Shown: in pieces, positions 39,075 to 56,336 of the stretch | Layout of the letters: each line of letters starts with the position of its first letter | Position numbering within the stretch: position 1 is the stretch's first letter | NCBI GenBank assembly: GCA_021846515.1 | Contig: JAJZWU010000004.1 | Span: 33,382 to 97,381, forward strand | Reading direction: 5' to 3' | DNA length: 64,000 nucleotides | Source: Actinomycetes bacterium | Lineage (GTDB): Bacteria; Actinomycetota; Acidimicrobiia; Acidimicrobiales; JAMCPL01 | The notes under the pieces: model-generated | What the model saw: only the letters and a program-made list of their open reading frames with translations | What the model was told of the DNA's origin: nothing | Database searches by the model: none | Made by a program: the position numbers and the translations under genes

Positions 39075-40583
39075 TCAAAGCTCTTTTTTGGAGACCTTTC
39101 CAGAGGGAGTTAGGGGCAATGCCTCTCGCACCTCCACTATCCTCGGCACCTTAAAGGGCGCCATCCGTTCAGAACACCATTTTATAAGCTCGTCCTCACT
39201 AAGTTGCATACCGGGACGCAGAGATACCACCGCTTTTGGAATTTGCCCTCTACGCGGATCGGTAGCACCCACCACCGCTACCTGTGCTATAGCAGGATGT
39301 TGAGCTACCACGTTTTCAATCTCTGAAGGATATATATTCTCACCTGTCATGATAATCATGTCCTTCAAACGATCTACTATAAACAGATACCCGTCTTCAT
39401 CCAGATAGCCAATGTCTCCCGTGTGCAGCCAGCCATCAGCAGTTAATACTTCTGCGGTCTCTTTTGGTCTTCCCAGGTATCCTTTCATGTTCAGAGCCGT
39501 ACGGATAAGTATTTCTCCGCGTTCATTGACCCCAAGTTTGCGGCCGGAGGAGTCGGCAATCACGACCTCTACCCCGGGCAAGGGCACACCTACAGAACCA
39601 ACCTTTCGCGGCATACCGGGTAATCCGCTGGATGTTCCCGCGGTGGACTCCGTAAGTCCATACCCTTCATAGACAGTACATCCAAAACGCTGTTCGAACT
39701 CGTTGATTGTCTCCAGGGGGATAGACTGGCCACCGGACATAACAAACCGAAGCGAGGATACATCGTAGTCATCTACTCCGGGAGTATTGAGTAACACCCA
39801 GAAAACAGCGGGTACTGCACCCATTATTGTAGCTCTGTATTTCTGTATGGCGTTCAGGACCCTGTGGGGATCAAAGGGGTCTTGTAGTATAAGTGTTCCT
39901 TCACCAAACAGTGTTGGGTGCATCATGGTCATATCCCCGAAGCCATGATAGAGGGGCATAAAGCAAAGTACCCTGTCATCCTCCTGGCGGGGAAATACCT
40001 CGCTCAACGTATCCACAAAGGTAACGATATTTCTGTGCGTATGCATTACTCCCTTTGGATAGCCCGTAGTGCCTGAGGTGTACTTGACTTCAGGCACATC
40101 ATCCCAACCGGAATCATACATCTCCGCTTGGGGCGATCCTGTATTCATTAAGTCCTGCCAATCAAGGGCTCCATTCACCGGCTCTACGGATATAGCCCGG
40201 TCAAAACCATCGAGGGAACTCAGCACAGTATATGCCTCGGAAAAACCTTTGGCATTGGTGATAAGAAGTTTGCACGACGAGTCTCTCAGGATGTATTCAA
40301 TTTCAGGACCCTTCAGTAGGGTGTTTATCAAGACCGCGGTGGCGCCTATCTTTCCGCAGGCATAGTAGGCGATAGGAAACTCGGGTCGATTGTTCAGCAT
40401 TATAGCTACACGATCACCCGGTTTTACTCCCAACTGTTTGAGTCCGTTGGCCATACGATTTACATTTTCCACAAGAGCTGCAAAGCTCATCTCTTGAACC
40501 GGCCCGTCCGCATTGTCCCAGACAATCGCTATACGATCAGGGGAGTTGGCAGCAGCCGATTCCAGGCGTGTTACGTAGTTCAT
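39075..40583 (-). CDS. AMP-dependent acyl-CoA synthetase (ligase)
   Basis: ANL-superfamily ligase of 502 residues that activates a carboxylic acid with ATP and CoA. Motifs: VKYTSGTTGYPKGVMHTHRN (P-loop), YEGYGLTESTAGTSS, GWLHTGDIGYLDEDGYLFIVDR, and the catalytic Lys in LTPSGKVSKKEL at the extreme C-terminus. Chain-length preference cannot be read. Being next to the mutase/carboxylase cluster, it is a candidate to make that pathway's CoA substrate, although it is on the opposite strand. Confidence 0.9.
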   Translation of the reverse strand: MNYVTRLESAAANSPDRIAIVWDNADGPVQEMSFAALVENVNRMANGLKQLGVKPGDRVAIMLNNRPEFPIAYYACGKIGATAVLINTLLKGPEIEYILRDSSCKLLITNAKGFSEAYTVLSSLDGFDRAISVEPVNGALDWQDLMNTGSPQAEMYDSGWDDVPEVKYTSGTTGYPKGVMHTHRNIVTFVDTLSEVFPRQEDDRVLCFMPLYHGFGDMTMMHPTLFGEGTLILQDPFDPHRVLNAIQKYRATIMGAVPAVFWVLLNTPGVDDYDVSSLRFVMSGGQSIPLETINEFEQRFGCTVYEGYGLTESTAGTSSGLPGMPRKVGSVGVPLPGVEVVIADSSGRKLGVNERGEILIRTALNMKGYLGRPKETAEVLTADGWLHTGDIGYLDEDGYLFIVDRLKDMIIMTGENIYPSEIENVVAQHPAIAQVAVVGATDPRRGQIPKAVVSLRPGMQLSEDELIKWCSERMAPFKVPRIVEVREALPLTPSGKVSKKEL

Positions 40584-40661
40584 CTCTCCGAATCCCCATT
40601 GGAATCCTGCACGTTTATCATATTACGATTACACTGCACAATCATCATAAAATACGTCCAG

Positions 40662-41516
40662 TCATATTGCCAGCAGCTTTCGGGCGTTATCCAAAATTAC
40701 CTTTTGCCTGGTCTCGGGTAAAATCTCGAGTGTATCGAACGATTCAAACCACTTAGTGGGATGAATCATTGGATAGTCGGTACCAAACAATGCCCTATTT
40801 TGGAGTTCTCTGTTTAGCGCTCTGACCAACTCCCTGCTGAATCTCTTTGGGCTCCATCCCGATAAATCGAGATAACAGTTTGCCTTGTGCATTGCCACTG
40901 CAAGAGTTTCGGATTCCCATGGCCAACCGGGATGGGCCAGTATAATATCCATCTCGGGAAAGTCGGCAGCTACATCATCAACATAGATGGGACGAGCATA
41001 GTCCAGTTTTATACCCATGCCTCCTCTTGTTCCTGCCCCAAATCCAGTGGTTCCCATATGGAAGAGGGCGGGTACACCCAGGTCTGCGATGGCTTCCCAC
41101 AGCGGGTAAAATTGGTGATCGTTCGGGCGAAATGCCTGGGCACATTGCTGAAACTTAAATCCCTTCAATCCAAGTTCATTTACTGCTCTCTTGGCCTCTG
41201 AAATGGCCATCTTTCCTTTCCAGGGATCTACGCTTGCAAACCCCATAAAGATATCCGGGAACTTGGATACAGCAGAAGCCACATCGTCATTGGAATATCT
41301 GGGATTACCGGTACCTGATTCTGCGTCCCATCCCAGAAGAACCGCCATTATGCCCTGGGATTCATAGTCCTGTGCTACAGCCTCCAGCGGCATAGCTATC
41401 GGCTCGTCAATCTGAATGCCAAAACTTCGTGCCGCGGCCAATGCCAAATCTCCTCCGGCCGCGTTCATCTCTGCAACCGGGGGATGTACGTGTATGTCTA
41501 TTGCTTTTATTTCCAA
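40662..41516 (-). CDS. Amidohydrolase family 2 protein
   Basis: TIM-barrel metal hydrolase/decarboxylase (ACMSD-like branch) of 284 residues. IDIHVHPPVAEM gives the N-terminal HxH ligands, PALFHMGTTG the next His, MDIILAHPGWPWESE the following one, and LFGTDYPMIHP the Asp. It may hydrolyse, hydrate or decarboxylate a carboxylate substrate. The start is TTG 41516, supported by an AGGAGGT Shine-Dalgarno 7 bp upstream; no in-frame ATG fits better. Confidence 0.82.
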   Translation of the reverse strand: MEIKAIDIHVHPPVAEMNAAGGDLALAAARSFGIQIDEPIAMPLEAVAQDYESQGIMAVLLGWDAESGTGNPRYSNDDVASAVSKFPDIFMGFASVDPWKGKMAISEAKRAVNELGLKGFKFQQCAQAFRPNDHQFYPLWEAIADLGVPALFHMGTTGFGAGTRGGMGIKLDYARPIYVDDVAADFPEMDIILAHPGWPWESETLAVAMHKANCYLDLSGWSPKRFSRELVRALNRELQNRALFGTDYPMIHPTKWFESFDTLEILPETRQKVILDNARKLLAI

Positions 41517-41532
41517 GGCATCTACCTCCTAA

Positions 41533-41631
41533 CTATCGTGATCTTATTCCAGTCTTTTTGTCTCTGCACCCTGACAGCATAATACCGGCATAATACTAAT
41601 TGGTGCTCTATCGTGATCTTATTACAGTCTT
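41533..41631. repeat. Spaced direct repeat CTATCGTGATCTTATT-CAGTCTT
   Basis: Two 24-bp copies at 41533-41556 and 41608-41631 differ at one base. The second runs into GTCTTCCAGTTG, which recurs at about 41700-41710. The 75-bp spacing and position between divergent genes suggest regulator sites or a duplication scar. Confidence 0.6.
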
Positions 41632-41851
41632 CCAGTTGAGAACCCTAGGCTAAAAGTATCGCTCTCTGCCAAATTATAATCCTGTGCCCATCCTGACGGT
41701 CTTCCAGTTGTTGCAACAGCTTTCATGCCTCTAGCTTCATCTCCAATCGTTACTGACTGATCTATCAATTAGTAATTATAGGTAATGTTAAACCAATTAA
41801 ATAGCTCACACCAGACAAACTCGCAAAATGTGACAGAAGTCCCTTGCGGAT

Positions 41852-41898
41852 TTCAATAAAAAGGTTCAAACTGATAAGATAACCTAATTGATTAGGTT
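41852..41898 (+). promoter_or_regulatory. Candidate promoter with palindromic operator
   Basis: TTCAAT (41852-41857), 17 bp, TAAGAT (41875-41880) forms a plausible housekeeping promoter. Directly after it lies AACCTAATTGATTAGGTT (41881-41898), whose eight-base arms are perfectly inverted. It lies where a bound TetR/FadR-like repressor would block transcription of the acyl-CoA dehydrogenase operon. Confidence 0.45.
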
Positions 41899-41941
41899 GT
41901 CAATAAGGTATTTACAGTGTCCTACATGGGTTCGGAATGGA

Positions 41942-43099
41942 ATGATGTTTTTGCTAACAGAAGAACAAGTTGATTTCAAGAAGTCTGTCCGTAGATTTGC
42001 CCGCGACAAGGTTGCCCCACGGGCAGCGGAGATAGATGAGCGGAGCGAATTCCCAAAAGATCTTTACCAATTACTCGGCAACCAGGGTCTACTTGGTCTC
42101 ACCGTTTCAGAGACATACGGAGGGGCAGGTGGTGACTTAATTGCGGCCTGCCTTGCGGCCGAAGAGCTTGGACGGGCAAGCGGCAGTTTTGCGCCAAGAG
42201 TAGGGGTTGCAACCATGATAGCCGAAACTATCATAGAGGGAGGCACCCCAGAGCAGGTCGACCGATGGGTAAAGCCAATAGTAAGCGGAGAATGCATGCC
42301 GGCCATAGCTCTTACGGAACCGGAAGCGGGATCAGACGCATTGTCTCTGCAAACCACAGCAATCAAGGGCGATAGGGGCTGGAATATAAGTGGCGCCAAG
42401 CGATTCATTACCAATGCAGATATTGCCGATGTCATACTCATGCTATGTCGCTTGGGAAAGGACGGTACAGACGGATTTGGCGCATTCCTAATAGAGAAAG
42501 ATACGCCCGGGGTCGAGGTAACGACCGTCTATCCCAAAATGGCAGGTGCAGCACTTCACGCCTGCGAAGTCGTGATAGATAACGCGCCTGTATCGGGTAG
42601 CAACCTACTGGGCGAAAGTTCTCTACCGCCAGGTTTTATACATTCTATGAGCAAGGGCCGTCTCATTGTATCGGCGGTCGGAATAGGCATAGCCGCGGAA
42701 GCAACCGGAATCGCCGCTCAATATGCCACGGAAAGAAAGCAGTTTGGACGCCCAATAATGAGGTTTCAGGGTATATCTTTCATGCTTGCAGACATGCTCA
42801 CAAAGGTGGAAGCGGCACGAGCACTGCTCTACGAAGCCGCGGCGATATACGCCAACAATCCCGATCGGGGTGCGGGATTTGCTTCGATGGCAAAGATTCT
42901 TGCAACAGATACTGCGATGGAAGCAACCACCAATGCAGTCCAAGTGCTGGGGGGGGCAGGGTATACCAAATCATTTCCACTGGAGAGAATGATGCGTGAA
43001 GCCAAGTTGCTTCAAATATACGAAGGAACCAACCAGATCCAAAGAATGCTGGTAGCAAGACACCTGGAGCAATGGAATGAGACACTGGAAAGTATATGA
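41942..43099 (+). CDS. Acyl-CoA dehydrogenase
   Basis: FAD enzyme of ~385 residues that makes an alpha,beta-double bond in an acyl-CoA. N-terminus LLTEEQVDFKKSVRRFARDK; FAD/substrate signature ALTEPEAGSD; helical C-terminus with QVLGGAGYTKSFPLERMMRE; catalytic Glu in LLQIYEGTNQIQRMLVARHL. The track start (TTG 41888) falls inside the operator; ATG 41942 or 41945 after GGAATGGA is preferred. First gene of the + strand cluster leading into the mutase. Confidence 0.92.
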   Translation: MMFLLTEEQVDFKKSVRRFARDKVAPRAAEIDERSEFPKDLYQLLGNQGLLGLTVSETYGGAGGDLIAACLAAEELGRASGSFAPRVGVATMIAETIIEGGTPEQVDRWVKPIVSGECMPAIALTEPEAGSDALSLQTTAIKGDRGWNISGAKRFITNADIADVILMLCRLGKDGTDGFGAFLIEKDTPGVEVTTVYPKMAGAALHACEVVIDNAPVSGSNLLGESSLPPGFIHSMSKGRLIVSAVGIGIAAEATGIAAQYATERKQFGRPIMRFQGISFMLADMLTKVEAARALLYEAAAIYANNPDRGAGFASMAKILATDTAMEATTNAVQVLGGAGYTKSFPLERMMREAKLLQIYEGTNQIQRMLVARHLEQWNETLESI

Positions 43100-43204
43100 A
43101 CATGTTTTGGAAAATGCCAATACTAACATGTGGGCAGGACATTACACACGGTGATAATACGGGTAGAAACATCTTACGGACAAACAAAGTGAACGGAGGA
43201 GCTC

Positions 43205-44911
43205 ATGACAGACAATACCAATACAGCTAACAGCCCAGAGGGAGATATTCCGAGTCAAACCCTGGAGGACATAGCCAAAGCCAGGCAAGAGTGGCTGACC
43301 TCAAGAGATTTTACCGGGGTAAGAGAAGCACACACCCTACTCGACGACATTCCACTTGACCTCATATACACGCCGGCAGATCTACCGGGTTACAACTATC
43401 TTGAGAAACTGGGCTTTCCCGGGGAGTTCCCCTTTGCGAGAGGAAGCTACCCTGCCATGTACAGGAGAAGGCCGTGGCTTATGAACCAATACTCGGGATT
43501 TGGAACGGCCGACGACACCAATGCTCGGTGGAAGCGGTTACTTGCCTCGGGGCAGTGGAGCGTAAATTTAGCCTTTGATCTCCCTTCACATCTTGGTTTG
43601 GACTCTGATAATCCGATGGCCGAGGATGAGGTCGGGCGTTTGGGTTGCGCCATCGACACCTTGAGAGATTTTGAAATTCTTTTTGATGGGATAGACCTTG
43701 CTACCACACCCGCTTCTTTCAACACTGTGGGTATAGCACCCATCGTAATAGCTATGCTCATAGCCGTAGCCGAAAAGCAGGGTCTTCAGGCTTCAGATGT
43801 CATGGGCACTATTACCAACGACATCCTATCGGTCTACTGCTCTAGGGGAACCTGGATTTATCCCCCGGAACACTCCATGCGCCTTGCCACTGATTTGATT
43901 GAGTATGCCTGCAGAAACATGCCAAGGTTTAATCCGTTAAATGTCCAGCCTGTATATATGCGAGAAACGGGGGCATCCACGGCACAAGAGGGGGGATACG
44001 GTCTGGCGTTCTCATTGGCATACGCAGAAAGCGCAATGGCCAGAGGTCTAAGTGTAGACGAGGTAGCTCCTCGCCTTACCATATTCTTTGGCGCGTCATT
44101 TCGTGTATTTGAAGAGGCAGCAAAAATAAGGGCTGCCCGTAGAGTGTGGGCTGACACTATTCAAAGCAGGTATTCACCGGGCAAAAAGTCCTCTATGGGA
44201 CTACGGATTACCGGATCCTCCGGTGGAAGTGGCTTTATTGCGGAAGAGCCCCTTACAAATGTAATAAGAGGTACGCTTGGATGCCTGGCCCTGGTACTCG
44301 GTGGCGTACAGGGTATCCTGCTTGCATCCTACGACGAGGCTTATGCTATCCCCACCGAAGAGGCATCAAAACTGGGGCTGCGCACACAGCAGATCATCTA
44401 TGAGGAAAGTGGATGTGCCGATGTGGCCGACCCATTGGGTGGCTCTTACTATATGGAGTGGCTTACCGACCAGATGGAGGAGAGAATAAGACACTACTTG
44501 GAAGAGGTCGAGAATGCAGGAGGTGCACTACATGCCGTATCGTCAGGATGGCTAAGATCGCGCATGGATCCAAACATAGTAAAACTTCAACGCCAGGCCG
44601 AGGAGGGACTATTAAAGATTGTCGGAAAGAACGCATATATAGAAGAACGGCCATCCGAACCAGATATAGAACTATTCAAAGTAGACCCGCAGTCGGTGTC
44701 AAAGCAGCTCCAGCGGCTCAATGCGATCAAAAAAGAGCGCAACGAACGTGATGTAAATGAGGTCCTGGCAAAACTTAGAAAGCAGGCCAAAGATTCAAAT
44801 ACAAATTTGATGCCAATACTTATAGAAGCCGTAAAGGCTTACGCTACCGTAGGCGAAATATCAGCAGTATTCAAAGAAGAGTTCGGTGAGTGGTCGGAAC
44901 CCGCGGCATAG
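43205..44911 (+). CDS. B12-dependent acyl-CoA mutase, large subunit, with atypical active site
   Basis: A 568-residue TIM-barrel subunit of the methylmalonyl-CoA mutase family, in the split form. Fold markers are clear: AMYRRRPW, AFDLPSHLGLDSDNP, GTWIYPPEHSMR, and ESGCADVADPLGGSYYMEWL. Alignment by eye with Propionibacterium MutB keeps Arg82 (R89 here), Tyr89 (Y96) and Arg207 (R214). It replaces Thr85 with Leu92, Arg87 with Asn94, Gln197 with Thr204, His244 with Tyr251, His328 with Thr336, Gln330 with Ser338, and Asn366 with Ala374; the usual TQSLHTN block reads VQGILLA. The reaction is probably non-standard. GGAGGAG precedes ATG 43205. Confidence 0.85.
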   Translation: MTDNTNTANSPEGDIPSQTLEDIAKARQEWLTSRDFTGVREAHTLLDDIPLDLIYTPADLPGYNYLEKLGFPGEFPFARGSYPAMYRRRPWLMNQYSGFGTADDTNARWKRLLASGQWSVNLAFDLPSHLGLDSDNPMAEDEVGRLGCAIDTLRDFEILFDGIDLATTPASFNTVGIAPIVIAMLIAVAEKQGLQASDVMGTITNDILSVYCSRGTWIYPPEHSMRLATDLIEYACRNMPRFNPLNVQPVYMRETGASTAQEGGYGLAFSLAYAESAMARGLSVDEVAPRLTIFFGASFRVFEEAAKIRAARRVWADTIQSRYSPGKKSSMGLRITGSSGGSGFIAEEPLTNVIRGTLGCLALVLGGVQGILLASYDEAYAIPTEEASKLGLRTQQIIYEESGCADVADPLGGSYYMEWLTDQMEERIRHYLEEVENAGGALHAVSSGWLRSRMDPNIVKLQRQAEEGLLKIVGKNAYIEERPSEPDIELFKVDPQSVSKQLQRLNAIKKERNERDVNEVLAKLRKQAKDSNTNLMPILIEAVKAYATVGEISAVFKEEFGEWSEPAA

Positions 44912-44955
44912 AGGCATAGAAAATTCGAGATCACCAAGACAGGAAGGGAGTATCT

Positions 44956-45417
44956 ATGATCAGCACAGATAGCGTTACCACAACTAATACAACATTCAAA
45001 GAACCAGGCGGCACTACAACCAGAGGCAGAATACTGGTAGCAAAACCGGGCCTGGATGGACACGACAGAGGTGCTCGGCTCGTTGCTCTGGTGTTGCGAG
45101 ATGCCGGTTTCGAGGTTATTTACACAGGCATCAGGCAGACACCGGCAACAATTGCCAGTGCCGCAGTACAAGAAGACGTAGATGTAGTTGGTCTATCCAT
45201 ACTGTCAGGAGCTCACCTATCCCTGAGCAAAAAAGTTCTGGAAGCCCTCAAAGAAGCGGGTGGAGGCGATATACCCGTAGTAGTCGGTGGACTGATACAC
45301 CCGCCGGATGTACCTGTGTTAATGGAAATGGGTGTAGCCGCAGTGTTTCCAAGCGGCACAAGGCTTGATGAGGTGGTGCGAGGAATAGGCGAAGCATGTA
45401 CAGGAAGGAGATTGTAA
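44956..45417 (+). CDS. B12-binding small subunit of the acyl-CoA mutase
   Basis: A 153-residue cobalamin-binding Rossmann domain. GLDGHDRGA is the DxHxxG motif whose His ligates cobalt from below, SILSGAHLSL and VVVGGLIHPP complete the B12 pocket. Unlike the large subunit, nothing key is missing, so the holoenzyme should bind adenosylcobalamin. Start ATG 44956 follows GGAAGGGAG. The stop overlaps the next ATG as TAATG, so mutase and carboxylase-like genes are translationally coupled. Confidence 0.92.
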   Translation: MISTDSVTTTNTTFKEPGGTTTRGRILVAKPGLDGHDRGARLVALVLRDAGFEVIYTGIRQTPATIASAAVQEDVDVVGLSILSGAHLSLSKKVLEALKEAGGGDIPVVVGGLIHPPDVPVLMEMGVAAVFPSGTRLDEVVRGIGEACTGRRL

Positions 45418-47555
45418 TGGAAGCGACAGCGCAAAGCACAACCGAGGAATACTATATAGGATCGGACATTGGAGGTACCTTTACAGATGTAGTTGTACTT
45501 GATGCAACCGGCAGGATTGTCCAAGCCAAATCGTCCTCTACTCCTCCAGAGTTCGACAGGGGATTAATTAACGCCCTGAGTGAAGCTGCTACGTCCCTGG
45601 GTACCACACTGCCCGGTATGCTTGAAAATACCAAAATTTTTGCACATGGTTGTACGGTAGCTACCAATGTTCTGGTTTCACGCCGTGGCGTCAAGGTGGG
45701 GGTTATTACCACAAAAGGCTTCGAAGAAACGCTGGGAATAATGAGGGGGAGTGCTTTTTGCCAGGGATTGCCCGTTGAGGATTGGTACCACAAATCAACC
45801 AACGAACGACCCTTTGAAATCGTAGCATCAAACGATATTATTGGAGTAACTGAACGAACGGACAAGTATGGCGAGATACTGGCTCCCCTGGCCGAAGACG
45901 AGGTACTGGAAGCCGCCGACCGTCTTATAAACAACCATGGATGTAAAGCCATAGCCGTATGTTTTTTGTGGTCTCACGTCAATCAACAAAACGAGAATAG
46001 GGCGGCCTCTTTGATACTGGAGAGATGGCCAGAAATGGCTGTAGATACAAGTTCTTCTACTTTGAAGATTTTGGGTGAATACGAACGCTTCTCCACTACG
46101 GTAATAAGCTCCTACGTCAGACCGGAGTTGGAACACTACACAACCAACCTGGCACGCACCCTGAGTGATACCGGTCTTGGTAAAAGGTTGCTAATAATGC
46201 AGGCATCCGGCGGTTTGACACCGGAGAAAAAGGCTACCTCCAGAGCGGTAAGCGTCCTCCACTCAGGACCGGTTGGTGGGGTAGCGGCGGCAATACAGGT
46301 TGCGTCGCTCTTGGGTGAGACCGAGGTCATTACGGCAGACATGGGAGGTACGTCTTTTGATGTAAGTGTTGTAGCAAATGGGCGTCCTCGCTATGCAACG
46401 CGATCGTTTCATGAGAGACATGTAGTAGCCGCTCCAATGGTCGATGTTGCCTCCATCGGAGCGGGCGGAGGGTCAATAGCTCGCGTGGCCGGTGGAAGAC
46501 TTACCGTAGGTCCGGAAAGTGCGGGCGCCAACCCCGGGCCAGTCTGTTACGGCAGGGGAGGAACCGAGCTCACCGTTACAGATGCAAACCTCGTACTGGG
46601 CTATATAAATCCGGAGTTCTTTCTGGGAGGTAAGATGCCTGTACAGGTAAGGCCATCTGTAGATGCAATGGATAGCCTAATAGCAAAACCACTATCTATG
46701 AGCACCAGTGAAGCTGCTTATGCCATACACAGAATAGCTAATGCACACATGGTTGACTTGATGCGCTTCTACCTAATACAGCGCGGATACAATCCGGCAG
46801 ATTTTACTCTGTTTGTTTTTGGAGGTGCTACGGGATTACATGCGTGCAGCCTAGCGGAGGAATTGGGGGCAAAGGAGGCCATTGTTCCCCTGGCTGGTCT
46901 GGCCACTGTAATGTCGGCATTTGGAATTGCCAACTCGGACGTGCTTCGAGTCACCTCGGCTGCAAATGCCATGCCGTTTCCACCGGAAGATCCTGAGATT
47001 ATCCGATCTTTGTATCTCTCTCTTGAAAAGGAGGCTGTATCGGACCTGGAAGAAGATGGGTTCACGGCTTCACAAATTAACATCGACAGGATAGCCTCTA
47101 TGCGTTACCACCTGCAGCTGACAGACGTGGAAGTGGACATTCCTTCCGGTGACATCAATTCCGGCACCCTAAAAGAAGTAATCAACCGGTTTGATGAACG
47201 TTATGCCAAGCTGTATGGCCCGGATGCCGGCTTTAGGGAGGCCGGACGTGACCTTATGGGTGAGTTTGTACATGCCAGAGGTAGGACCCCGAAGGGGAAA
47301 ATAGACATGTTGCCACTGGAGGGCAGCGACCCATCTTATGCCATAAAAGGCGAACGCGAGTGTTACTTTGGAGACCCAGAAGGTACTACCAGAACCACAG
47401 CATTTTATGACGGCGACAAACTTCAACCCGGAGCACATATAGTAGGGCCGGCCATTCTTGAGATGTCCGGTACAACGGTAGTGATTACACCCAGTTTTTC
47501 AGCTACTTATGATGAATACCGCAACATCCACCTCAATAAAACCAAGAAGGCTTGA
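45417..47555 (+). CDS. HyuA/acetone carboxylase beta-like subunit
   Basis: A 712-residue hydantoinase/oxoprolinase A-type protein with an actin-like ATPase fold. SDIGGTFTDVVVLD is the phosphate-1 loop, ATNVLVSRRGVKVGVITTKG follows, then HSGPVGGVAAA, DMGGTSFDVSVV and VASIGAGGGSIARV. In the acetone carboxylase complex this subunit phosphorylates the ketone (enol) and/or bicarbonate; in other branches it opens hydantoins or 5-oxoproline. The partner gene (next) favours the carboxylase branch. The track start is 45396; ATG 45417 after AGGAAGGAGA is preferred. Confidence 0.85.
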   Translation: MEATAQSTTEEYYIGSDIGGTFTDVVVLDATGRIVQAKSSSTPPEFDRGLINALSEAATSLGTTLPGMLENTKIFAHGCTVATNVLVSRRGVKVGVITTKGFEETLGIMRGSAFCQGLPVEDWYHKSTNERPFEIVASNDIIGVTERTDKYGEILAPLAEDEVLEAADRLINNHGCKAIAVCFLWSHVNQQNENRAASLILERWPEMAVDTSSSTLKILGEYERFSTTVISSYVRPELEHYTTNLARTLSDTGLGKRLLIMQASGGLTPEKKATSRAVSVLHSGPVGGVAAAIQVASLLGETEVITADMGGTSFDVSVVANGRPRYATRSFHERHVVAAPMVDVASIGAGGGSIARVAGGRLTVGPESAGANPGPVCYGRGGTELTVTDANLVLGYINPEFFLGGKMPVQVRPSVDAMDSLIAKPLSMSTSEAAYAIHRIANAHMVDLMRFYLIQRGYNPADFTLFVFGGATGLHACSLAEELGAKEAIVPLAGLATVMSAFGIANSDVLRVTSAANAMPFPPEDPEIIRSLYLSLEKEAVSDLEEDGFTASQINIDRIASMRYHLQLTDVEVDIPSGDINSGTLKEVINRFDERYAKLYGPDAGFREAGRDLMGEFVHARGRTPKGKIDMLPLEGSDPSYAIKGERECYFGDPEGTTRTTAFYDGDKLQPGAHIVGPAILEMSGTTVVITPSFSATYDEYRNIHLNKTKKA

Positions 47556-47627
47556 AGCAATGTGTAATGAAACGCTAACGATGGTTAACGGGTAGCACCC
47601 AAAAAACCGACAGAAAGGAGAATTAAG

Positions 47628-50105
47628 ATGTTAGTTCGTCAATTTGGAACGCCGGTAAACGATCTTCCTCCGGTAGAAAAATTTACAGTGGAGTATACAG
47701 ACAAGACCCCCCCGGTGGACGTAGATCCTGCAACCTATGAAGTACTGAGACACCGGCTATGGTGGGCTTTAATAACCGTGTCAGAGACCCTGAAAAAGGT
47801 ATCAGGGACTATTGTTACCGCAGAAGGCAATGACATGAGCACCTACATATCGCTTGAGGATGGATCTCCAGTGTATCTCGGTCCATACGTGGCGTTGCAT
47901 TCCGGTATTGCAGACCTGCTAATCTCCAGAACCATAGAGACAGCCGGTGACGAAATAGAGCCCGGGGATATGATTTTGTGCAACGACCCTTGGATGGGGC
48001 CCGTACATCAGCCCGATTGCGCGGTGATTGCACCCCTGTTTGTAGACGGTACAATATTTTCATGGGTGGGGGTAACGCTTCATCAGTTGGATATGGGAGG
48101 AATTGACCCCGGTGGCCTATGTCCCAATGCCCACGACGCCTTTGGTGAACCTCACATATATCCCGCAGTGAAGTTGGTAGAACATGGAAAGATGCGTCGT
48201 GACATAGATCGGATGCTCCGGCGCAATTCACGAATGCCCGACATAGTTGCTCTTGATATGCGTTCCATGGTTTCCGGCAACCACGCCGCGCTGCAGGAAT
48301 TGCAGTCACTGATTTCTACATACTCCCCGGAAGTAGTGCGTTCGGTCATGATAGAAATACAGGAAGATGCAAAGCGGCAATTTCGCGAACGACTACAGTC
48401 GCTTCCGAGAGGGCAGTTCAGCGGAATAGATCGTAATGAAGTGGGCGGCGCCGATCAATCATTGCAAGACGACGTTTATGAAGTTCAATGCACCCTACGC
48501 AATACCGGAGAAAAATTGATATTCGACTTCTCTGGTACATCAAAACAGTCCGGTGGCTTTGCCAACTGCGGGTATGGGGGGTTACGAAGTGCATGTCTTA
48601 TGTCGCTTATGGAATCTGCCGCCCTTAATATGCCCTGGAATGCTGGGGTGTCGTCCTGTGTAGAGATATGGACACAGCCCGGAACGGTTAACAACCCCAC
48701 GTGGCCGGCGGCGGTTTCTGATGGAATTACAGAGGGTGCCGTTACTACCGCTTTGGCGGCATCACAAGCCGTCTCGAATTGGTTGTTGGCATCAAAAAAC
48801 ATGAAGGACAGAGCGGGAGCAAACGGTGGAAACTTTCTTGGTAATACCCTTGGTGGTATTGATGAGAACGGAAAGCTGTGGGGCACGCTGCTTTTGGACA
48901 GCCTTGTACAGTCGTACGGGCCTACGTTGAACAGAGATGCCATTGATATGGCTGGGGCTCCCGGAATCCCATATACCCAAATTATAAACGTCGAGCAAAA
49001 TGAACAACACTATCCTCTTTTGTACCTATTTCGCCGAACCGGTCGTGGTACGGGAGGAGCTGGAAAGCACAGAGGGGGTAACGCTATCGAGTTCGCCTTT
49101 ACTCCTCACGGTGTTGATTTTGCGTATCTATTACTGTGGAATCATGGAGCTGAGTTCCCAAACACCGCACCAATGGATGGAGGGCTCCCCAATGGCGCAA
49201 ATCGCTTTCTTGTGGCGTCGGTACCCGATCTGGCTGATCGCATGAGGCATGGAATGTTGCCCCTTGACTTCAATGAACTCGGTGTAAGGGTGGATCACCT
49301 ACCAGCCAAATCCGACCGTCTGATCGTTCCCGGTGACCTTGTGCTCTTTGGTGCACAGGGAACCCCCGGATTTGGTGACCCCCTTGAACGTGATCCCGAT
49401 CTGGTGGCAAAGGACGTCGCAACAGGGCAATACACCGAAGATGTGGCTCGCTGCCTATATGGAGTGGTCCTGACGGAGGCCAATTTGAACGGGGGGGGTG
49501 ATTCAGCAGGTTCTGGAACCACCAATACCCTACGGGCAGACGGACAAGCCACCGAATCCCTCAGAAAGGATTACATCACTGCCCGCCTGGCAGCGTCCAG
49601 ACCGGTAATGGAATTAAACGACATGACTACCTGGATAAATACAGACAAACTGGGATGGGACTCTCTGTTGGACTACCTTTCGCAGGCAGAGAATAAGGCA
49701 GGTGAAACCATACTTAACGGCAACGGCAATCATCCGATTGACACCAACGAGAAAGGTGTATCTAACGGAAACGACGTACTGGTAAGTTATGGAGATTCTT
49801 TGCAGTTGTATTCAAACAAAGACGGTTCCTATGCCTGGAAATGTGCATCATGTGGAAATACCTACTGTGATCATACCGGTAATCCAAAACTGCACTCCAA
49901 TGTAGTGGTGTTGCCATTGAATTCGGTACATCCCTGGGCAAGCACGGTAAGGTTGGACAATCAACGGTTCTTCTGCAGAATATACCTCTGCCCGTCGTGT
50001 GGCCGGTCGTTTGCCTCCGAAATAAGCCGACCGGATGACCCCGTAATTCCTGATGCGCTACTGGACACCGAGTGGTTGGAGGATATTGCACCTGCCGGTG
50101 TCTGA
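47628..50105 (+). CDS. HyuB/acetone carboxylase alpha-like subunit fused to a gamma-like zinc domain
   Basis: An 825-residue protein. Residues ~30-640 are a hydantoinase-B domain with ILCNDPWMGPVHQPD, the W/HQ form typical of acetone/acetophenone carboxylases rather than the NDP-GGTHLPD of hydantoinases. A linker follows, then residues ~730-820: WKCASCGNTYCDHTGNPKL and IYLCPSCGRSFASEI, then a PDDPVIPD stretch. This closely resembles the separate gamma subunit of acetone carboxylase (CxCGxxxCDxxxNxKL ... CPxCG). A natural alpha-gamma fusion is therefore proposed. AAAGGAGAA precedes ATG 47628. It is the last gene of the cluster. Confidence 0.82.
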   Translation: MLVRQFGTPVNDLPPVEKFTVEYTDKTPPVDVDPATYEVLRHRLWWALITVSETLKKVSGTIVTAEGNDMSTYISLEDGSPVYLGPYVALHSGIADLLISRTIETAGDEIEPGDMILCNDPWMGPVHQPDCAVIAPLFVDGTIFSWVGVTLHQLDMGGIDPGGLCPNAHDAFGEPHIYPAVKLVEHGKMRRDIDRMLRRNSRMPDIVALDMRSMVSGNHAALQELQSLISTYSPEVVRSVMIEIQEDAKRQFRERLQSLPRGQFSGIDRNEVGGADQSLQDDVYEVQCTLRNTGEKLIFDFSGTSKQSGGFANCGYGGLRSACLMSLMESAALNMPWNAGVSSCVEIWTQPGTVNNPTWPAAVSDGITEGAVTTALAASQAVSNWLLASKNMKDRAGANGGNFLGNTLGGIDENGKLWGTLLLDSLVQSYGPTLNRDAIDMAGAPGIPYTQIINVEQNEQHYPLLYLFRRTGRGTGGAGKHRGGNAIEFAFTPHGVDFAYLLLWNHGAEFPNTAPMDGGLPNGANRFLVASVPDLADRMRHGMLPLDFNELGVRVDHLPAKSDRLIVPGDLVLFGAQGTPGFGDPLERDPDLVAKDVATGQYTEDVARCLYGVVLTEANLNGGGDSAGSGTTNTLRADGQATESLRKDYITARLAASRPVMELNDMTTWINTDKLGWDSLLDYLSQAENKAGETILNGNGNHPIDTNEKGVSNGNDVLVSYGDSLQLYSNKDGSYAWKCASCGNTYCDHTGNPKLHSNVVVLPLNSVHPWASTVRLDNQRFFCRIYLCPSCGRSFASEISRPDDPVIPDALLDTEWLEDIAPAGV

Positions 50106-50583: not shown

Positions 50584-51066
50584 TTATTCTCTTGTTATCG
50601 ATTTACCAACTACCACTATCTTAATGTGTTCTACCGCCGCGTTGCTTCCTGGACGGGAGTCGTATGAGGCGTCGGCTGGGGGTTCGCCTGCTTTTGGTAG
50701 TTTACTCATCGGACTGCTGGTAGTACTTTGACCACCCGAAAAATTGCTCTTTTCGATTATTTCGTTAATTCTATCTATTATATCGCAATATACAGTTTTT
50801 ATATAAGCTGCTACATTGGTGTCACTGGCTATAATTACCATTTCATTCCCGTGTATGTTTGCAAATGCAACTTTTTCGTTTAACGGCTCTCCCCATATAT
50901 TATTCCAATTAGCCATAATCACTTTTACCAGGTCAAGCTGTTTATCTCCATTGTTTCCTCCCTCCTCAGAAGTTTTATTGATGGCTTTACCTGTGCTTAC
51001 AAGGTGATCGTTACTGTCTTCACCTAGATTCAAGTAGGTATAAATTGATTCTTTTATGCTCCTCAT
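50584..51066 (-). CDS. dciA: DUF721/DciA-like replication protein
   Basis: About 160 residues. The central block VIMANWNNIWGEPLNEKVAFAN followed by MVIIASDTNVAAYIKTVYCDII matches DUF721/DciA (W..I.G..L...... L.V...S..WA..L). DciA loads or assists DnaB in bacteria lacking DnaC/DnaI. The N- and C-terminal regions are Ser/Gly/Asn-rich and disordered. ATG 51066 (MRSIKES) avoids the overlap with dnaN given by the track start. Its place after dnaN also fits, except that recF is not between them. Confidence 0.62.
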   Translation of the reverse strand: MRSIKESIYTYLNLGEDSNDHLVSTGKAINKTSEEGGNNGDKQLDLVKVIMANWNNIWGEPLNEKVAFANIHGNEMVIIASDTNVAAYIKTVYCDIIDRINEIIEKSNFSGGQSTTSSPMSKLPKAGEPPADASYDSRPGSNAAVEHIKIVVVGKSITRE

Positions 51067-51094
51067 TATAAGTATATTAGTATCCGCGCTATTT

Positions 51095-52222
51095 TTAATC
51101 CTTAATCCTAATTGGCATAAGATAGTATTTAAAGTTGCTATCATCAGGAGATGATATTAGGGCAGCATACTTACTATCATCAAACGATATTTCTATAGTA
51201 TCCCCATCCAATACTTCCACTCCGTCGATTACGAAATTGGGATTGAATCCTATGCTAAAGGATTCGTCCCCTTCATATGTTGCTTCTACCTGTTCGTTTG
51301 CTTTTCCCAGTGTAACAGAGTTTATATATAACTCTATTCCTATCTCTGACCAGGATAGGTTTACTTTTGATGTATCGTCTTTTGCCAGTATACTAATCCG
51401 CTTAAGAGAATCGATTAGGTGTGATTTACTTATAGTAATTTTATTCTTGTAGGTATGATTGGTTACCGACTCAAATGAAGGAAACTTTCCATTAACCAGC
51501 CTACTGTATATTTCTATGTTATCAAATATAAAGTTTATGTCTGTATCAGAAACGTTTATAGATAGTTTGTCTTCACCGCTACTGTCGTTATTGGATGAAC
51601 CAATTAGTCTAGCCACATCAGTCAATACTTTTGATGGAATTAGGATTTCGCTATCCAGAATTGAAGTGGTGTCTACTCCGGACATTCGTGCAAATGAAAG
51701 TCTATAGGAATCGGTAGATGTAAATTGCAATTCGTCTGTTAGTGCCTTCATGTGAATGCTTGTCAGTATTGGCCTTGTATCATCTTTAGACGATGCTTTC
51801 AGTATTTGGCGTGTCAGGTTAACAAATGTATTTTTTGGCAATTCAATAGGGTTACCCGTAGGAAATACTATGGGAGGAAATTCATTGATATCCATAGTTC
51901 TAAGTTCAAACTGCATGTTCTTTTCCTTAACAAATAACATACTGTCTACAAGCGAAATTTCTATTGCACCAGGGGGCATAGCTGCTACTATGTCTGCCAG
52001 TAATCTAGATGAAACTACACATGCACCGTTTTCTGAAGACTGTACCCGTACTGAACACCTGGTTGCTGAATCCAAATCGGTGGTAAGTAGATTTAACACG
52101 TTATCCTCCATGGTAATTCGTACAAGGCCGGGTAGTTGGCTGAATTGAGAACGTGTACCACCCTGTCTGGATACCTTCTTCATAGCATCAGCTAAAATAG
52201 ACTGTTCGGCTATTAAATTCAT
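51095..52222 (-). CDS. dnaN: DNA polymerase III sliding clamp (beta subunit)
   Basis: A 375-residue three-domain ring clamp. N-terminus FDS-free start MNLIAEQSILADAMKKVSRQ; TTDLDSATRCSVRV, then RPILTSIHMKALTDELQFTSTDSYRL in the middle domain, and SDDSNFKYYLMPIRI at the C-terminus, the last corresponding to the ..YLIMPVRI end typical of clamps. It lies directly downstream of dnaA with the presumed origin in the gap. Confidence 0.95.
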   Translation of the reverse strand: MNLIAEQSILADAMKKVSRQGGTRSQFSQLPGLVRITMEDNVLNLLTTDLDSATRCSVRVQSSENGACVVSSRLLADIVAAMPPGAIEISLVDSMLFVKEKNMQFELRTMDINEFPPIVFPTGNPIELPKNTFVNLTRQILKASSKDDTRPILTSIHMKALTDELQFTSTDSYRLSFARMSGVDTTSILDSEILIPSKVLTDVARLIGSSNNDSSGEDKLSINVSDTDINFIFDNIEIYSRLVNGKFPSFESVTNHTYKNKITISKSHLIDSLKRISILAKDDTSKVNLSWSEIGIELYINSVTLGKANEQVEATYEGDESFSIGFNPNFVIDGVEVLDGDTIEISFDDSKYAALISSPDDSNFKYYLMPIRIKD

Positions 52223-52447
52223 ATTGTGTATATTCTCCTAAGTAATCTATATTTATATATTAGTAGTAGTAGTAGTAGGTGTGAATTGTGCATTCTTTAA
52301 CGTATTACCTGGTAATTACAATACTTTCACTTTCTCAACCAAGTGTACTGATTGTGGAAAACTATCAGCTTTAGTAATTACACCTTGATCATATGTGTAT
52401 ATACACCATATTATACATAGTAATATCCACAGGTTTACCACCATATT
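52223..52447. other. oriC: Candidate replication origin (dnaN-dnaA gap)
   Basis: 225 bp, AT-rich. An AT stretch (52247-52260) is followed by TAG repeated six times (52261-52278), then TGTGAATTG. Further on are near-match DnaA boxes: TGTGGAAAA (52353-52361), TTATACATA (52411-52419) and ATATCCACA (52423-52431). The order AT-rich / TAG triplets / DnaA boxes is that of the bacterial basal unwinding system. The flanking gene strands also diverge around this region. Confidence 0.65.
52261..52278 (+). repeat. (TAG)6 DnaA-trio-like tract
   Basis: Six perfect TAG triplets. Read 3'-5' this is repeated GAT, the DnaA-trio that binds a DnaA filament on single-stranded DNA. Confidence 0.6.
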
Positions 52448-53872
52448 TTAACTGTACTCTTTTATCATTTTAGTTAACATCATAATTTGATTGTATAGTT
52501 CCCGATCATTATTCATATCGTTGGTTATTTTTTCTACGGCATGTATTACAGTGGTATGGTCGCGATCACCAAAATGGCGTGCGATTGCCGGATAAGAGTA
52601 ATCAGTGAGTTCTCTTATGAGATACATAGCCAGCTGCCTGGCGCGTACAAGTGGACGATTTCGTGCTGGACCGGATAAATCTGAAGAGCTGTAACCCAAT
52701 TGTGCTGAGACTATATACTTGATTTTTTCTGGAGTTATTATTTGAGTAGCGGATGTAAATATATCGGTCAGTGTCGATTTGGCCAACTCTATATCAAGCG
52801 TTTTGTTGGTAAGTCGTGCATAAGCAGTTACGCGTGTCAGAGCACCTTCCAGTTCACGTATATTCGTGGTTATATGGGTAGCTATAAACTCGTATACATC
52901 TTGTGGTACCGGTATTGTCAAGTTGTCAAGTTGTGATTTGTTTTGCAAAATGGCTATTCTGGTTTCCAGCTCCGGAGGTTGTACGTCTGTTATTAAACCA
53001 GACATAAACCTACTGCGTAAACGATGCTCCAGGGTAGACAGGGAACTTGGTGGTTTGTCAGAGGTAAATACCAATTGCTTTGAAGCGCCGTATAGGTCGG
53101 CAAACGTATAAAAGAACTCCTCCTGTAACTGTTCCTTACCTCCAAGAAATTGAACATCGTCTACCAGAAGAACGTCGCACTCACGATAACGTTTTTTGAA
53201 AAAAATCTGAGTGTTGTTTCTTATTGCTTCGACAAATTCATTCAAGAATTGTTCTGTTGATACATATCGTATTATACTATTAGTTGTGCTGTGTATGTAG
53301 TTTCCTATTGCGTGTAAGAGGTGTGTTTTACCAAGTCCAGTACCCCCGTGAATTAGTAGTGGGTTGTACGACCTGGCTGGTGATTCAGCTACTGCCATCG
53401 CTGCTGCATGGGCAAATCTATTGGAAGAGCCTATTACAAAATTGTCAAACGTATAACGAGGGTCAAGTTCGTTATTGTCTCGAGATACAGCTATATGGTC
53501 TTGGTAATTATTTTGAATGTCCTGAGTTTCACGTCCCTCATGCTCCCCTGTTTGGATATACTGCAATTCATCGTACTGATTTCCGTTGTGTTGCCTCACC
53601 AGAAGCTGTATTTCAGGAGTACTTCCAAGGGTTTCCTCAACGGCTTTATGTAGTAACGGTAAAAACGCGGATTCTATTTTTGATTTAACAATTCCGCTTG
53701 GCAATGTCAGGATTACGCGTGATGAAGATATATTATCGCATTTGATATTTGCCAACCAGGTTTTCCAGACAGCATCAGAAACCATTGTACGTATGGTCTG
53801 TGTACAAAGTTTCCACAGCTCATCTTGATCACCCAACTCGGATAACTTGGTGCTTGTGTTGATGGTATCCAC
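52448..53872 (-). CDS. dnaA: Chromosomal replication initiator DnaA
   Basis: A 474-residue AAA+ initiator. Domain I ~1-90, a short Asn/Gln/Glu-rich domain II, then YTFDNFVIGSSNRFAHAAAMAV opening domain III. Walker A is IHGGTGLGKTHLLHAIGNY, Walker B is VLLVDDVQFLGGK. The domain IV DNA-binding signature is GDRDHTTVIHAVEKI. GTG start at 53872; the box TGTGGATAC (minus strand of 53865-53873) overlaps that start codon, suggesting autoregulation. Confidence 0.98.
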   Translation of the reverse strand: MDTINTSTKLSELGDQDELWKLCTQTIRTMVSDAVWKTWLANIKCDNISSSRVILTLPSGIVKSKIESAFLPLLHKAVEETLGSTPEIQLLVRQHNGNQYDELQYIQTGEHEGRETQDIQNNYQDHIAVSRDNNELDPRYTFDNFVIGSSNRFAHAAAMAVAESPARSYNPLLIHGGTGLGKTHLLHAIGNYIHSTTNSIIRYVSTEQFLNEFVEAIRNNTQIFFKKRYRECDVLLVDDVQFLGGKEQLQEEFFYTFADLYGASKQLVFTSDKPPSSLSTLEHRLRSRFMSGLITDVQPPELETRIAILQNKSQLDNLTIPVPQDVYEFIATHITTNIRELEGALTRVTAYARLTNKTLDIELAKSTLTDIFTSATQIITPEKIKYIVSAQLGYSSSDLSGPARNRPLVRARQLAMYLIRELTDYSYPAIARHFGDRDHTTVIHAVEKITNDMNNDRELYNQIMMLTKMIKEYS

Positions 53873-53895
53873 AGCTTTTCAACTCTTGTGGAAAA
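53865..53895 (-). promoter_or_regulatory. DnaA-box-like pair at the dnaA start
   Basis: GTATCCACA (53865-53873) and TGTGGAAAA (53887-53895) each differ by one base from TTATCCACA or its complement. They flank the GTG start of dnaA. Confidence 0.5.
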
Positions 53896-54258
53896 CGTAC
53901 TTTGGTATTCCCAAAACCACCCTAAACATGTCAAACCATGACACAAAATCGACACCCTTGTATGTATCGTAGAAACGTCTGAAAATATTAATATTCACAT
54001 GTTGGAAGTTACACCACCTGAGACCGACTTGCTAGCGGATCGTTAAAATCACCGTGTAACTGGCAAAATACCATGCTGTCGTTTATCTTGGATAACGTTC
54101 TATGGACGGGCAAGAACAAAAACCCGTACTGCCCGCGATGGGTGTTTATTTCTGGTATAGTGAAACAGTGTGCCGAGAGCATACCGGGTGCTATAATTTT
54201 GGCTCCCGTTGGTACTGTAAGAAGTGGTATATATTTTAGATTAAAGGCAAGACATAGT
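53873..54258. other. Gap between dnaA and rpmH
   Basis: About 386 bp. It holds the two DnaA-box-like sites next to dnaA, an AT-rich patch (AATATTAATATT, near 53980), and TATAAT at 54192-54197 as a possible rpmH -10 without a clear -35. The ORF-track extension from 54073 is only the open frame upstream of rpmH. No other gene is seen. Confidence 0.5.
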
Positions 54259-54405
54259 ATGAAAAGAACTTATCAGCCAAAGACACGCCGCAGGTTGCGA
54301 AAGCATGGATTTAGACACAGGATGGCAACAAAGGCCGGAAGACGCATTCTTCAAAGCAGAAGACTGAAGGCCAGAAAAAAGTTAACGGTCCAACGAGCAG
54401 CGTAA
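54259..54405 (+). CDS. rpmH: 50S ribosomal protein bL34
   Basis: A 48-residue basic protein: [19 protein letters not shown] and [20 protein letters not shown] are the invariant bL34 segments. ATG 54259 is the family start; the longer track ORF from 54073 is spurious. It is first of the rpmH-rnpA-yidD-yidC-jag-rsmG set. Confidence 0.97.
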
Positions 54406-54479
54406 AAATTGGTGCAGTAAGCGACCAAGCTACCTTCAGACAGCTTCTGCGCGGCGCCAGAGCTATAAAGCCAGGAGTA

Positions 54480-54782
54480 ATGTCGGTAAAATTTGCGCCA
54501 ACAGAAGAGCCCTTTACCGGTGTGCGTGTTGCGTTTTCTGTACCGGCACGAATTGGTTGCGCTGTAGTAAGGAACCGTATAAAGAGGAGAATACGAGCTG
54601 TTATACGTCAAAACGGTGATCATATAGTCAGTGGCGCTTATTTGATAAGGGTTCACGATAGATTGGATGGGTTAAATCACAGTGAACTATCTGCTTTGGT
54701 CAATCAGTTAATGCGTGAGTCCAGCATAAAACCAAGATGTTCCGTAGGCAAAAATAGAAATGAATTACTTTTAGGTAAATAA
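54480..54782 (+). CDS. rnpA: Ribonuclease P protein component
   Basis: Binds RNase P RNA and assists 5' maturation of tRNAs. VVRNRIKRRIRAVIRQ is the hallmark RNR motif helix, and VAFSVPARIGCAVVRN is the strand before it. The first ATG is 54480 (100 residues), but the same frame upstream reads SDQATFRQLLRGARAIKPG, which matches the normal N-terminal helix of RnpA. No ATG, GTG or TTG lies in frame between the rpmH stop and 54480, so a non-canonical start (e.g. ATT 54408) may be used. Confidence 0.9.
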   Translation: MSVKFAPTEEPFTGVRVAFSVPARIGCAVVRNRIKRRIRAVIRQNGDHIVSGAYLIRVHDRLDGLNHSELSALVNQLMRESSIKPRCSVGKNRNELLLGK

Positions 54783-54803
54783 AAAGTTAGTCGTGAATAA
54801 ACA

Positions 54804-55109
54804 ATGAAATTATTAAAAAATAAATCTGAATATAATAGTTCAATAAGTGTAATAAAAAAAGAACAGCTACCACTAACTACTAGTATTGGACTGTTGCCGA
54901 TAAAGGTATATAGAATTTTACGTGCGGGTAGGCCATCGCCGTGTAGGTATATTCCGAGCTGCTCGGAGTATACCTTACAGGCTATTACTAGATTTGGGGT
55001 GTTGCGTGGCTGGTGGATGGGGGTTTTACGTGTTACAAAATGCAGACCGGGTGGTGGGTTTGGCTTTGATCCCGTGCCCGATAAAGATTCGATAACCGAT
55101 AAAGATTAA
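54804..55109 (+). CDS. yidD: Membrane protein insertion efficiency factor YidD
   Basis: YidD/Haemolytic-domain protein, 101 residues. YRILRAGRPSPCRYIPSCSE followed by YTLQAITRFGVLRG, and RVTKCRPGGGFGFDPVP, are diagnostic, with the conserved cysteines present. An N-terminal extension of ~30 residues is unlike most YidDs. It lies between rnpA and yidC as in most bacteria. Confidence 0.93.
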   Translation: MKLLKNKSEYNSSISVIKKEQLPLTTSIGLLPIKVYRILRAGRPSPCRYIPSCSEYTLQAITRFGVLRGWWMGVLRVTKCRPGGGFGFDPVPDKDSITDKD

Positions 55110-55121
55110 GGAAATGTTGGC

Positions 55122-56336
55122 GTGATAATTGCAAGTACACTAGGGCAAATATTTCAACCAATTTTTGAACTATTTGCATATACAATAGCATTTTTTTATG
55201 CAATAATACCTAATTACGCAATAGCTATAACACTATTAACTATTGCGGTAATGGTAATAACTGCTCCACTAACCATCAAGGGAACCGTATCCATGATGGC
55301 CATGCAAAGATTTGCTCCCGAGATGAAGAAGATTCAACAAAAATACAAGGGAGACAAGGTAAAGCAAAACGAAGAGCTCATGGCGTTGTACAAGAAGCAT
55401 AACATCAGTCCCATGGGGGGATGCCTACCGCTACTATTGCAATTACCAGTATTTTTTATACTTTATGGGGTAATTGACGGACTTATTAATACAGTACGCA
55501 ACAAACACCATCAGATTGTTGCAGAACCCAGATATATAGGACACAGTACGTCTCTTTACCATCATCTGATAGTTACCCCCGGTAGGATCATGTCGTTCGG
55601 TATTAATTTGGCCAGTAAGGCACTTGCCCATCATTCATCGGTTGTGGCATCACTTCCGTTTTGGCTGCTTGTTGCTGCTGCTATAGCTGCACAGTACTAC
55701 CAGATGCGGCAAATGAATAGATGGAACCCAGATGCCGCCAAAGCAAATCCACAGGCCCAAATGATGCAAAAGTATATGCCGGTAATTATGGCAATAATAT
55801 ATATCAATATTCCTGCCGGAGTAAATGTCTATTTTATTATATCCAGTTTGTGTCGTATAGGCCTGCAAGAGGGCATTTATAGGTTTGGCTGGGGAATGAA
55901 AGCCCTGAATGCCGAGCAGTCAAAATCGGAATCGGACAATCCTGATAAAGTGGTTAATGGTACGGTAAAACCAAAACGACCATCTATTATGGAGCGCATG
56001 CTTGAAGCCCAACAGAGAGCCATGACCAATTCTAAACAACTGGAAGAGAAGAAACAAGCCATGTTGACCGAAGCCAGAGATGTTAGGAGTGACGACGGTA
56101 TAGTTCCAAAAAACAATAACAGTGCAGATAAAAATACGCTCAGAGATACAGAAACGGGCACTCAGGATACAAACGGGCACTCAGGAAAAAACGGAGCGCC
56201 AGACAGAGAGTCAGGTTCATCTTACGGTGCTCCTCAATCGGACAAACGTATAAAAAATATCCCTACCGATCAATCGTTGGAACGGAAAAACGTCCATCCA
56301 CGTTCCAGGGATAAACGTACCAGAAAACCAAGGTAA
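55122..56336 (+). CDS. yidC: Membrane protein insertase YidC
   Basis: YidC/Oxa1-type insertase of 404 residues that places proteins in the cytoplasmic membrane. An N-terminal helix leads to NYAIAITLLTIAVMVITAPLTIKGTVSM. The cytosolic hairpin follows (FAPEMKKIQQKYKGDKVKQN), then the second helix MGGCLPLLLQLPVFFILYGVI, and later helices. Gram-positive layout without the large periplasmic domain. The C-terminal ~150 residues are a charged, ribosome-binding-like tail. GTG start. Confidence 0.95.
   Translation: MIIASTLGQIFQPIFELFAYTIAFFYAIIPNYAIAITLLTIAVMVITAPLTIKGTVSMMAMQRFAPEMKKIQQKYKGDKVKQNEELMALYKKHNISPMGGCLPLLLQLPVFFILYGVIDGLINTVRNKHHQIVAEPRYIGHSTSLYHHLIVTPGRIMSFGINLASKALAHHSSVVASLPFWLLVAAAIAAQYYQMRQMNRWNPDAAKANPQAQMMQKYMPVIMAIIYINIPAGVNVYFIISSLCRIGLQEGIYRFGWGMKALNAEQSKSESDNPDKVVNGTVKPKRPSIMERMLEAQQRAMTNSKQLEEKKQAMLTEARDVRSDDGIVPKNNNSADKNTLRDTETGTQDTNGHSGKNGAPDRESGSSYGAPQSDKRIKNIPTDQSLERKNVHPRSRDKRTRKPR

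Follow-up and report, generated by a model that had tools for sequence, protein, structure and literature searches.

In the known enzymes that carboxylate acetone and acetophenone, the HyuB-type and γ pieces are separate subunits (PMC5214803, PMC5543143). The stretch of DNA analysed here (the window; 64,000 nucleotides from a draft-genome contig of an Actinomycetes bacterium) carries a gene that appears to encode both in one polypeptide, and a preliminary description had read it as a fusion of α-like and γ-like subunits of acetone carboxylase (Acx). Is the fusion real, to which branch of the family does it belong, and which reaction may its product catalyse?

A HyuB-type subunit and a γ domain in one gene

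The open reading frame, its coordinates and the motifs quoted from it in that description were correct. A ribosome binding site (AAAGGAG, at about 47614-47620) lies 5' of the ATG. In Pfam searches the protein matched Hydantoinase_B at residues 33-585 (2.1e-96) and Acetone_carb_G at residues 726-817 (30.5 bits; curated cut-off 21), and it is the only protein in the source genome with a PF08882 match. All four zinc-domain cysteines are present (Cys739, Cys742, Cys788 and Cys791). The linker between the two parts differs in length among homologues, is poorly conserved and has low pLDDT. Features of the gene and its neighbours are collected in Table 1.

Table 1. Coordinates of the fusion gene, its parts and the adjoining catabolic genes in the window
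Feature	Position	Strand	Basis
HyuB-γ fusion protein, 825 aa (P0001)	47628..50105	+	ORF, translation, Pfam, ribosome binding site
HyuB / carboxylase metal-site (α-type) domain, residues 33-618	47724..49481	+	Pfam Hydantoinase_B, 2.1e-96; Foldseek
Metal-ligand set Asp69, His127, Asp130, His152	47832..48083	+	Alignment with CapB and Acx
Variable linker, residues about 619-709	49482..49754	+	Poor conservation, low pLDDT
γ-subunit-like zinc domain, residues about 710-817	49755..50078	+	Pfam Acetone_carb_G, PDB profile, fold
HyuA partner, ATP-binding kinase-like subunit, 719 aa	45396..47555	+	Pfam Hydantoinase_A; ATP motifs
B12-binding small subunit of acyl-CoA mutase	44956..45417	+	Pfam B12-binding, TIGR00640
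Acyl-CoA mutase large subunit	43205..44911	+	Best PDB match 2-hydroxyisobutyryl-CoA mutase
Acyl-CoA dehydrogenase, ordinary YEG motif	41888..43099	+	Motif read from translation
Amidohydrolase-2 family protein	40662..41516	-	Pfam Amidohydro_2, 4.3e-43; syntenic in L036, L037, L038, L081
Acyl-CoA ligase (AMP-binding enzyme)	39075..40583	-	Syntenic in L036, L037, L081

The C-terminal part had been assigned to the zinc γ subunit of acetone carboxylase, an assignment that would fall if an unrelated ribbon family matched better. We found no such match in Pfam, in the PDB or by fold. The last 126 residues alone matched Acetone_carb_G at 1.2e-8, with the best other Pfam family at 0.005. A profile of ten C-terminal domains retrieved the acetone carboxylase γ chains from the PDB at 1.8e-12 and 8.8e-12 and the acetophenone carboxylase (Apc) γ chain at 4.4e-9; the next chain scored 0.16. 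The γ domain was predicted with pLDDT mostly 76-91 over its core, and a fold search with it returned 5m45_C, 5svb_C/F and 5svc_C at 2.7e-8 to 1.4e-7 and 5l9w_C at 3.3e-5, with all other structures at 0.04 or above. An unrelated zinc ribbon is therefore rejected, and the C-terminal residues are a homologue of the γ subunit. AlphaFold gave a poor model of the full-length protein (pLDDT 51). In a Foldseek search it matched, as one chain, the α-type chains 5l9w_A, 5m45_A, 5svb_A and 6yra_B (E <= 1.3e-20) and also γ chains of those complexes (1.7e-6 to 2.1e-4). Both halves thus match separate chains of the same solved complexes, in agreement with the earlier view that one polypeptide holds two otherwise separate subunits.

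The window comes from a draft contig, and a missed stop, an assembly error or a chance match to the zinc motif could in principle mimic such a protein; nothing else was found in favour of an artefact. The same full-length architecture recurs in independently assembled genomes, at 71% overall identity in one (G367/L052), 45% in a second (G322/L053) and 48% over the HyuB part in a third (G533/L081). A same-genus copy (G391) is 95% identical and is ended by a contig edge. Beyond these, Deltaproteobacterium NaphS2 (L054) has a fused protein, and plasmids encode one in Niveispirillum (L114), Mycobacterium branderi and Rhodococcus pseudokoreensis; those of the last two are annotated 'hydantoinase B/oxoprolinase family protein'. 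Recurrence in several independent assemblies and complete plasmids refutes an artefact, and the E-values of the profile and fold searches counter a chance motif, so that we give this explanation practically no weight. HyuB and γ are truly joined in one gene, and other bacteria have the same join.

It is also not unique to the source genome. A γ-like domain was present in 22 of 397 evenly sampled Actinomycetota genomes, and inspection found HyuB fusions in nine of these. Long frames around γ, such as L068 (1266 aa), were read-through frames and were rejected as fusions. A contig profile search with the γ domain alone found no relatives; the same search with the fused alignment A1 found five. 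The haloarchaeon Haloterrigena has the unfused order HyuA-HyuB-γ, with a HyuB 37% identical to that of the window and a separate γ annotated 'acetone carboxylase subunit gamma'. Our search of the open-access literature found no description of a fused γ. On the Rhodococcus pseudokoreensis plasmid (L112), the fused cluster lies beside genes for HMG-CoA lyase and a degradative HMG-CoA reductase, neighbours that hint that the substrate in this lineage is related to mevalonate or isoprenoids.

Metal site and family branch of the N-terminal part

The stretch NDPWMGPVHQPD had been taken as a mark of the carboxylase branch. It holds His127 and Asp130 of the HyuB metal site, which is common to the whole family and occurs in hydantoinases (Hyd) and caprolactamase as well. 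Therefore, it is no evidence for that branch. Asp69, His127, Asp130 and His152 align with Asp41, His99, Asp102 and His124 of the caprolactamase subunit CapB and with Glu89, His150, Asp153 and His175 of Acx (ligands from PMC8453981 and PMC5543143). At position 69 of 59 aligned proteins, Glu is found in 13 rows, all in the Acx-side clade. Asp is the residue in Apc and Hyd, in the branch of the window protein and in one subgroup on the Acx side (L047, L048 and L101). Against solved structures, the N-terminal part scored highest with ApcD (145 bits), followed by CapB and N-methylhydantoinase (123 bits each) and, in fourth place, AcxB (102 bits).

We built IQ-TREE quick trees, first of 51 and later of 59 HyuB domains; the trees are unrooted, so that gain and loss of γ cannot be read from them. 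One clade (SH-aLRT 100) holds the window protein with its four closest relatives and lies within a larger assemblage made up mainly of fused proteins. This assemblage is apart from the Apc clade, which includes ApcD of 5L9W, and from the Acx clade, which includes L110 and L111, whose own or neighbouring genes are annotated as acetone carboxylase. The γ-less hydantoinases and caprolactamase form a single clade (99) on the window branch's side of the tree. The window protein thus belongs to a third γ-bearing, uncharacterised branch of the family, in which γ is usually fused.

A second fusion lineage, comprising proteins of about 950 residues (L084, L085, L087 and L089), is found inside the Acx clade. 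A single clade of all fused proteins was rejected (p-AU 8.5e-48), and with it one origin for all fusions: the second fusion arose separately within the acetone carboxylase clade. Its members come nearer to the wording of the preliminary description than the window protein does.

These data bear directly on whether the protein is a genuine acetone carboxylase with α and γ simply fused. It shares with Acx (αβγ; PDB 5SVB/5M45, Xanthobacter autotrophicus) a metal-site subunit, an ATP-binding partner and a four-cysteine zinc γ located downstream of the α-type part, and Acx γ is the best fold match of its γ domain. The fused proteins of the Acx clade also show that such an arrangement exists. However, in the window protein γ is fused, Asp replaces Glu89, the gating metal ligand of Acx, and the HyuB part ends near residue 618, whereas an Acx metal-site subunit has about 720-776 residues. 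The roughly 85-115-residue Acx C-terminal extension found in L091 and L110 is missing. The protein lies in a separate clade, AcxB is not among the three best matches of its N-terminal part to solved structures, and its gene neighbourhood, unlike that of Acx, has a B12 mutase. We consider a fused acetone carboxylase very unlikely. Of the proposed α-γ fusion, the joining of γ to a HyuB-family subunit stands; the naming of that subunit as acetone carboxylase α-like is not supported. The protein was correctly spotted as a fusion and too specifically described: it is most probably not an acetone carboxylase.

The protein also differs from Apc (PDB 5L9W, Aromatoleum aromaticum), with which it shares the Asp metal ligand and a γ homologue and whose ApcD is the best sequence match of its N-terminal part. 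Apc has the gene order α'-γ-α-β and two ATP-binding subunits. The window cluster has no second ATP-binding α' subunit and no γ gene between two α genes, and its protein does not group with ApcD. In layout it resembles Hyd and caprolactamase (CapAB, PDB 6YRA; N-methylhydantoinase, 7HK5/9H03), with subunits A and B encoded by two genes, the Asp-His-Asp-His metal site, ATP motifs and the same side of the tree. The γ domain sets it apart from them, since characterised members have none. The pairing of Hydantoinase_A and Hydantoinase_B proteins with conserved ATP and metal sites places it within the hydantoinase/ketone-carboxylase superfamily.

The catabolic cluster and its mutase

The fusion gene is the last in a run encoding the acyl-CoA dehydrogenase, the large and B12-binding subunits of the mutase, HyuA and HyuB-γ, in this order. 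Only one HyuA lies beside it, with the ATP motifs DIGGTFTD, DMGGT and GANPGP. The amidohydrolase-2 and acyl-CoA ligase genes are divergent to this run. The entire cluster is retained in L036 and L037. L038 retains HyuA, HyuB-γ, dehydrogenase, amidohydrolase and both mutase subunits in a different order, plus an enoyl-CoA hydratase. L081 keeps HyuA, HyuB-γ, amidohydrolase and ligase and has no mutase within 18 kb. Among genomes of the same family, all drafts of 67-93% completeness, the cluster mutase is present in all three that have the fusion and absent from all three that do not. The source genome has four other mutase paralogues.

The nearest solved relative of the cluster mutase is 2-hydroxyisobutyryl-CoA mutase (HcmAB, PDB 4R3U; 435 bits), which has the same two-subunit layout. 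The four cluster-linked mutases (window, L036, L037 and L038) differ from it in keeping the positions of Tyr89 and Arg207 of methylmalonyl-CoA mutase (MCM) and in replacing Gln197 by Thr, Tyr243 by Val and His244 by Tyr. The other paralogues examined (L121, L124 and L125) keep Gln197 and His244. Arg207 of MCM binds the substrate carboxylate. Its retention therefore makes a carboxylated acyl-CoA a likely substrate. The cluster mutase possibly has a new specificity.

The catabolic cluster (39075-50105) has a G+C content of about 0.50, compared with 0.38-0.42 in dnaN, dnaA and yidC (51095-56336); that of dxs, at 29971, is 0.49. Between the cluster and the replication genes, adjoining dnaN and dnaA, lies a DciA-like gene (50584-51144, minus strand) with a weak Pfam match (25.3 vs 24 bits). 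Further along are a DDE transposase gene (DDE_Tnp_1; 60986-61909, plus strand) and an adjoining 327-residue open reading frame (62195-63178, minus strand) with no Pfam match.

A proposed two-gene enzyme and its possible reaction

In known relatives, the HyuA-type subunit phosphorylates the carbonyl and the intermediate then travels about 40 Å to reach the metal site in the HyuB-type subunit (PMC5543143, PMC8453981). The ATP motifs of HyuA and the metal ligands of the fusion protein lead us to expect the same division of work. HyuA and HyuB-γ are best read as the ATP-dependent carbonyl-activating enzyme that usually has three subunits, here reduced to two genes. The two proteins may form an α2(βγ)2 complex. 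HyuA would phosphorylate the carbonyl, possibly bicarbonate too, and the intermediate would pass to Asp69, His127, Asp130 and His152 of the fused subunit, where the bond would be made or broken. At the subunit interface the γ domain would act as a structural cap; the fusion would keep it at 1:1, and its zinc would not be catalytic. The likeliest reaction would be carboxylation of a ketone-like compound other than acetone, the substrate of known Acx. We propose that activation of the product with CoA, rearrangement by the B12 mutase and oxidation by the acyl-CoA dehydrogenase would follow in this order. Taken as a whole, this explanation is the one we favour, with reservations. It is consistent with the matches of both halves, in sequence and in fold, to separate chains of the same solved complexes, with the presence of all zinc cysteines and metal ligands, with the unfused gene order in Haloterrigena, with the cluster that L036 and L037 retain and L038 has in rearranged form, and with the co-occurrence of the cluster mutase and the fusion.

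The proposed role of γ is consistent with its counterpart in solved Acx, which contacts mainly the α subunit, making an α-γ fusion geometrically reasonable, and whose zinc has no predicted catalytic role (PMC5543143). Three or four zinc cysteines have been lost together in the fused γ of Rhodococcus opacus L109 and of L086, L087, L043 and L044, and in the separate γ of L100 and of Cereibacter sphaeroides L110 (7330-7833), the latter annotated as acetone carboxylase γ. Such repeated joint loss argues that the zinc is not catalytic, in agreement with the structural work. The same losses in L043, L044, L086 and L109, together with the position of L043 and L044 beside the γ-less clade, raise the question of whether the C-terminal domain lacks any catalytic effect, as a general scaffold or a relic on the way to γ-less hydantoinases. 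We think this improbable for the window branch, where overall identity is 45-71% and the four cysteines are retained together with the motif around them; in any case, a relic would be compatible with our preferred explanation.

Whether the reaction is a carboxylation is harder to judge, and we put the chances at about even. The γ domain points to carboxylation because γ has been reported in carboxylases only and is absent from every Hyd complex (PMC5214803). Against this, the window branch lies on the side of the γ-less hydantoinases, not with Acx or Apc, and has the Asp of Hyd and Apc. A serious rival, and one we regard as quite possible, is that HyuA and HyuB-γ form an ATP-dependent hydrolase that opens a lactam, imide or hydantoin ring, with γ as a retained structural part. 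The substituted dicarboxylic acid released would be converted to its CoA ester, which the B12 mutase would rearrange before oxidation, as in indoleacetate degradation by IaaCE, IaaGH and IaaF of A. aromaticum. The gene logic resembles that of the iaa operon, in which a HyuAB-type enzyme is combined with an acyl-CoA dehydrogenase and a B12 acyl-CoA mutase (PMC8360864; for the A. aromaticum γ-lactamase, PMC5214803). The carboxylated acyl-CoA substrate suggested by the mutase likewise points to hydrolysis. In NaphS2, a molybdenum hydroxylase gene lies directly downstream of the fused HyuB-γ gene (L054, 11329-14013), an arrangement that suits the formation and opening of a lactam better than carboxylation. 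The absence of γ from Hyd complexes, noted above, speaks against a hydrolase, we saw no gene for a heterocycle hydroxylase next to the cluster of the window, and the dehydrogenase has YEG where IaaF has the GGG motif described in PMC8360864, which weakens the case for an IaaF-type pathway.

Within the carboxylation reading, the enzyme may be a third kind of γ-bearing ATP-dependent carboxylase, with γ as a domain of the metal-site subunit, that feeds a B12 mutase of new specificity. The cluster would then serve an undescribed catabolic route that leads from a ketone or a cyclic amide by way of a carboxylated acyl-CoA, a proposal that we make tentatively.

The fused γ permits clean domain deletions and cysteine mutants at fixed stoichiometry, with which the role of γ could be probed. 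A γ domain on a hydantoinase-side branch means that γ may fail as a criterion for telling carboxylases from Hyd. The cluster with its linked mutase points to a so far unrecognised pathway of degradation in draft genomes of actinobacteria.
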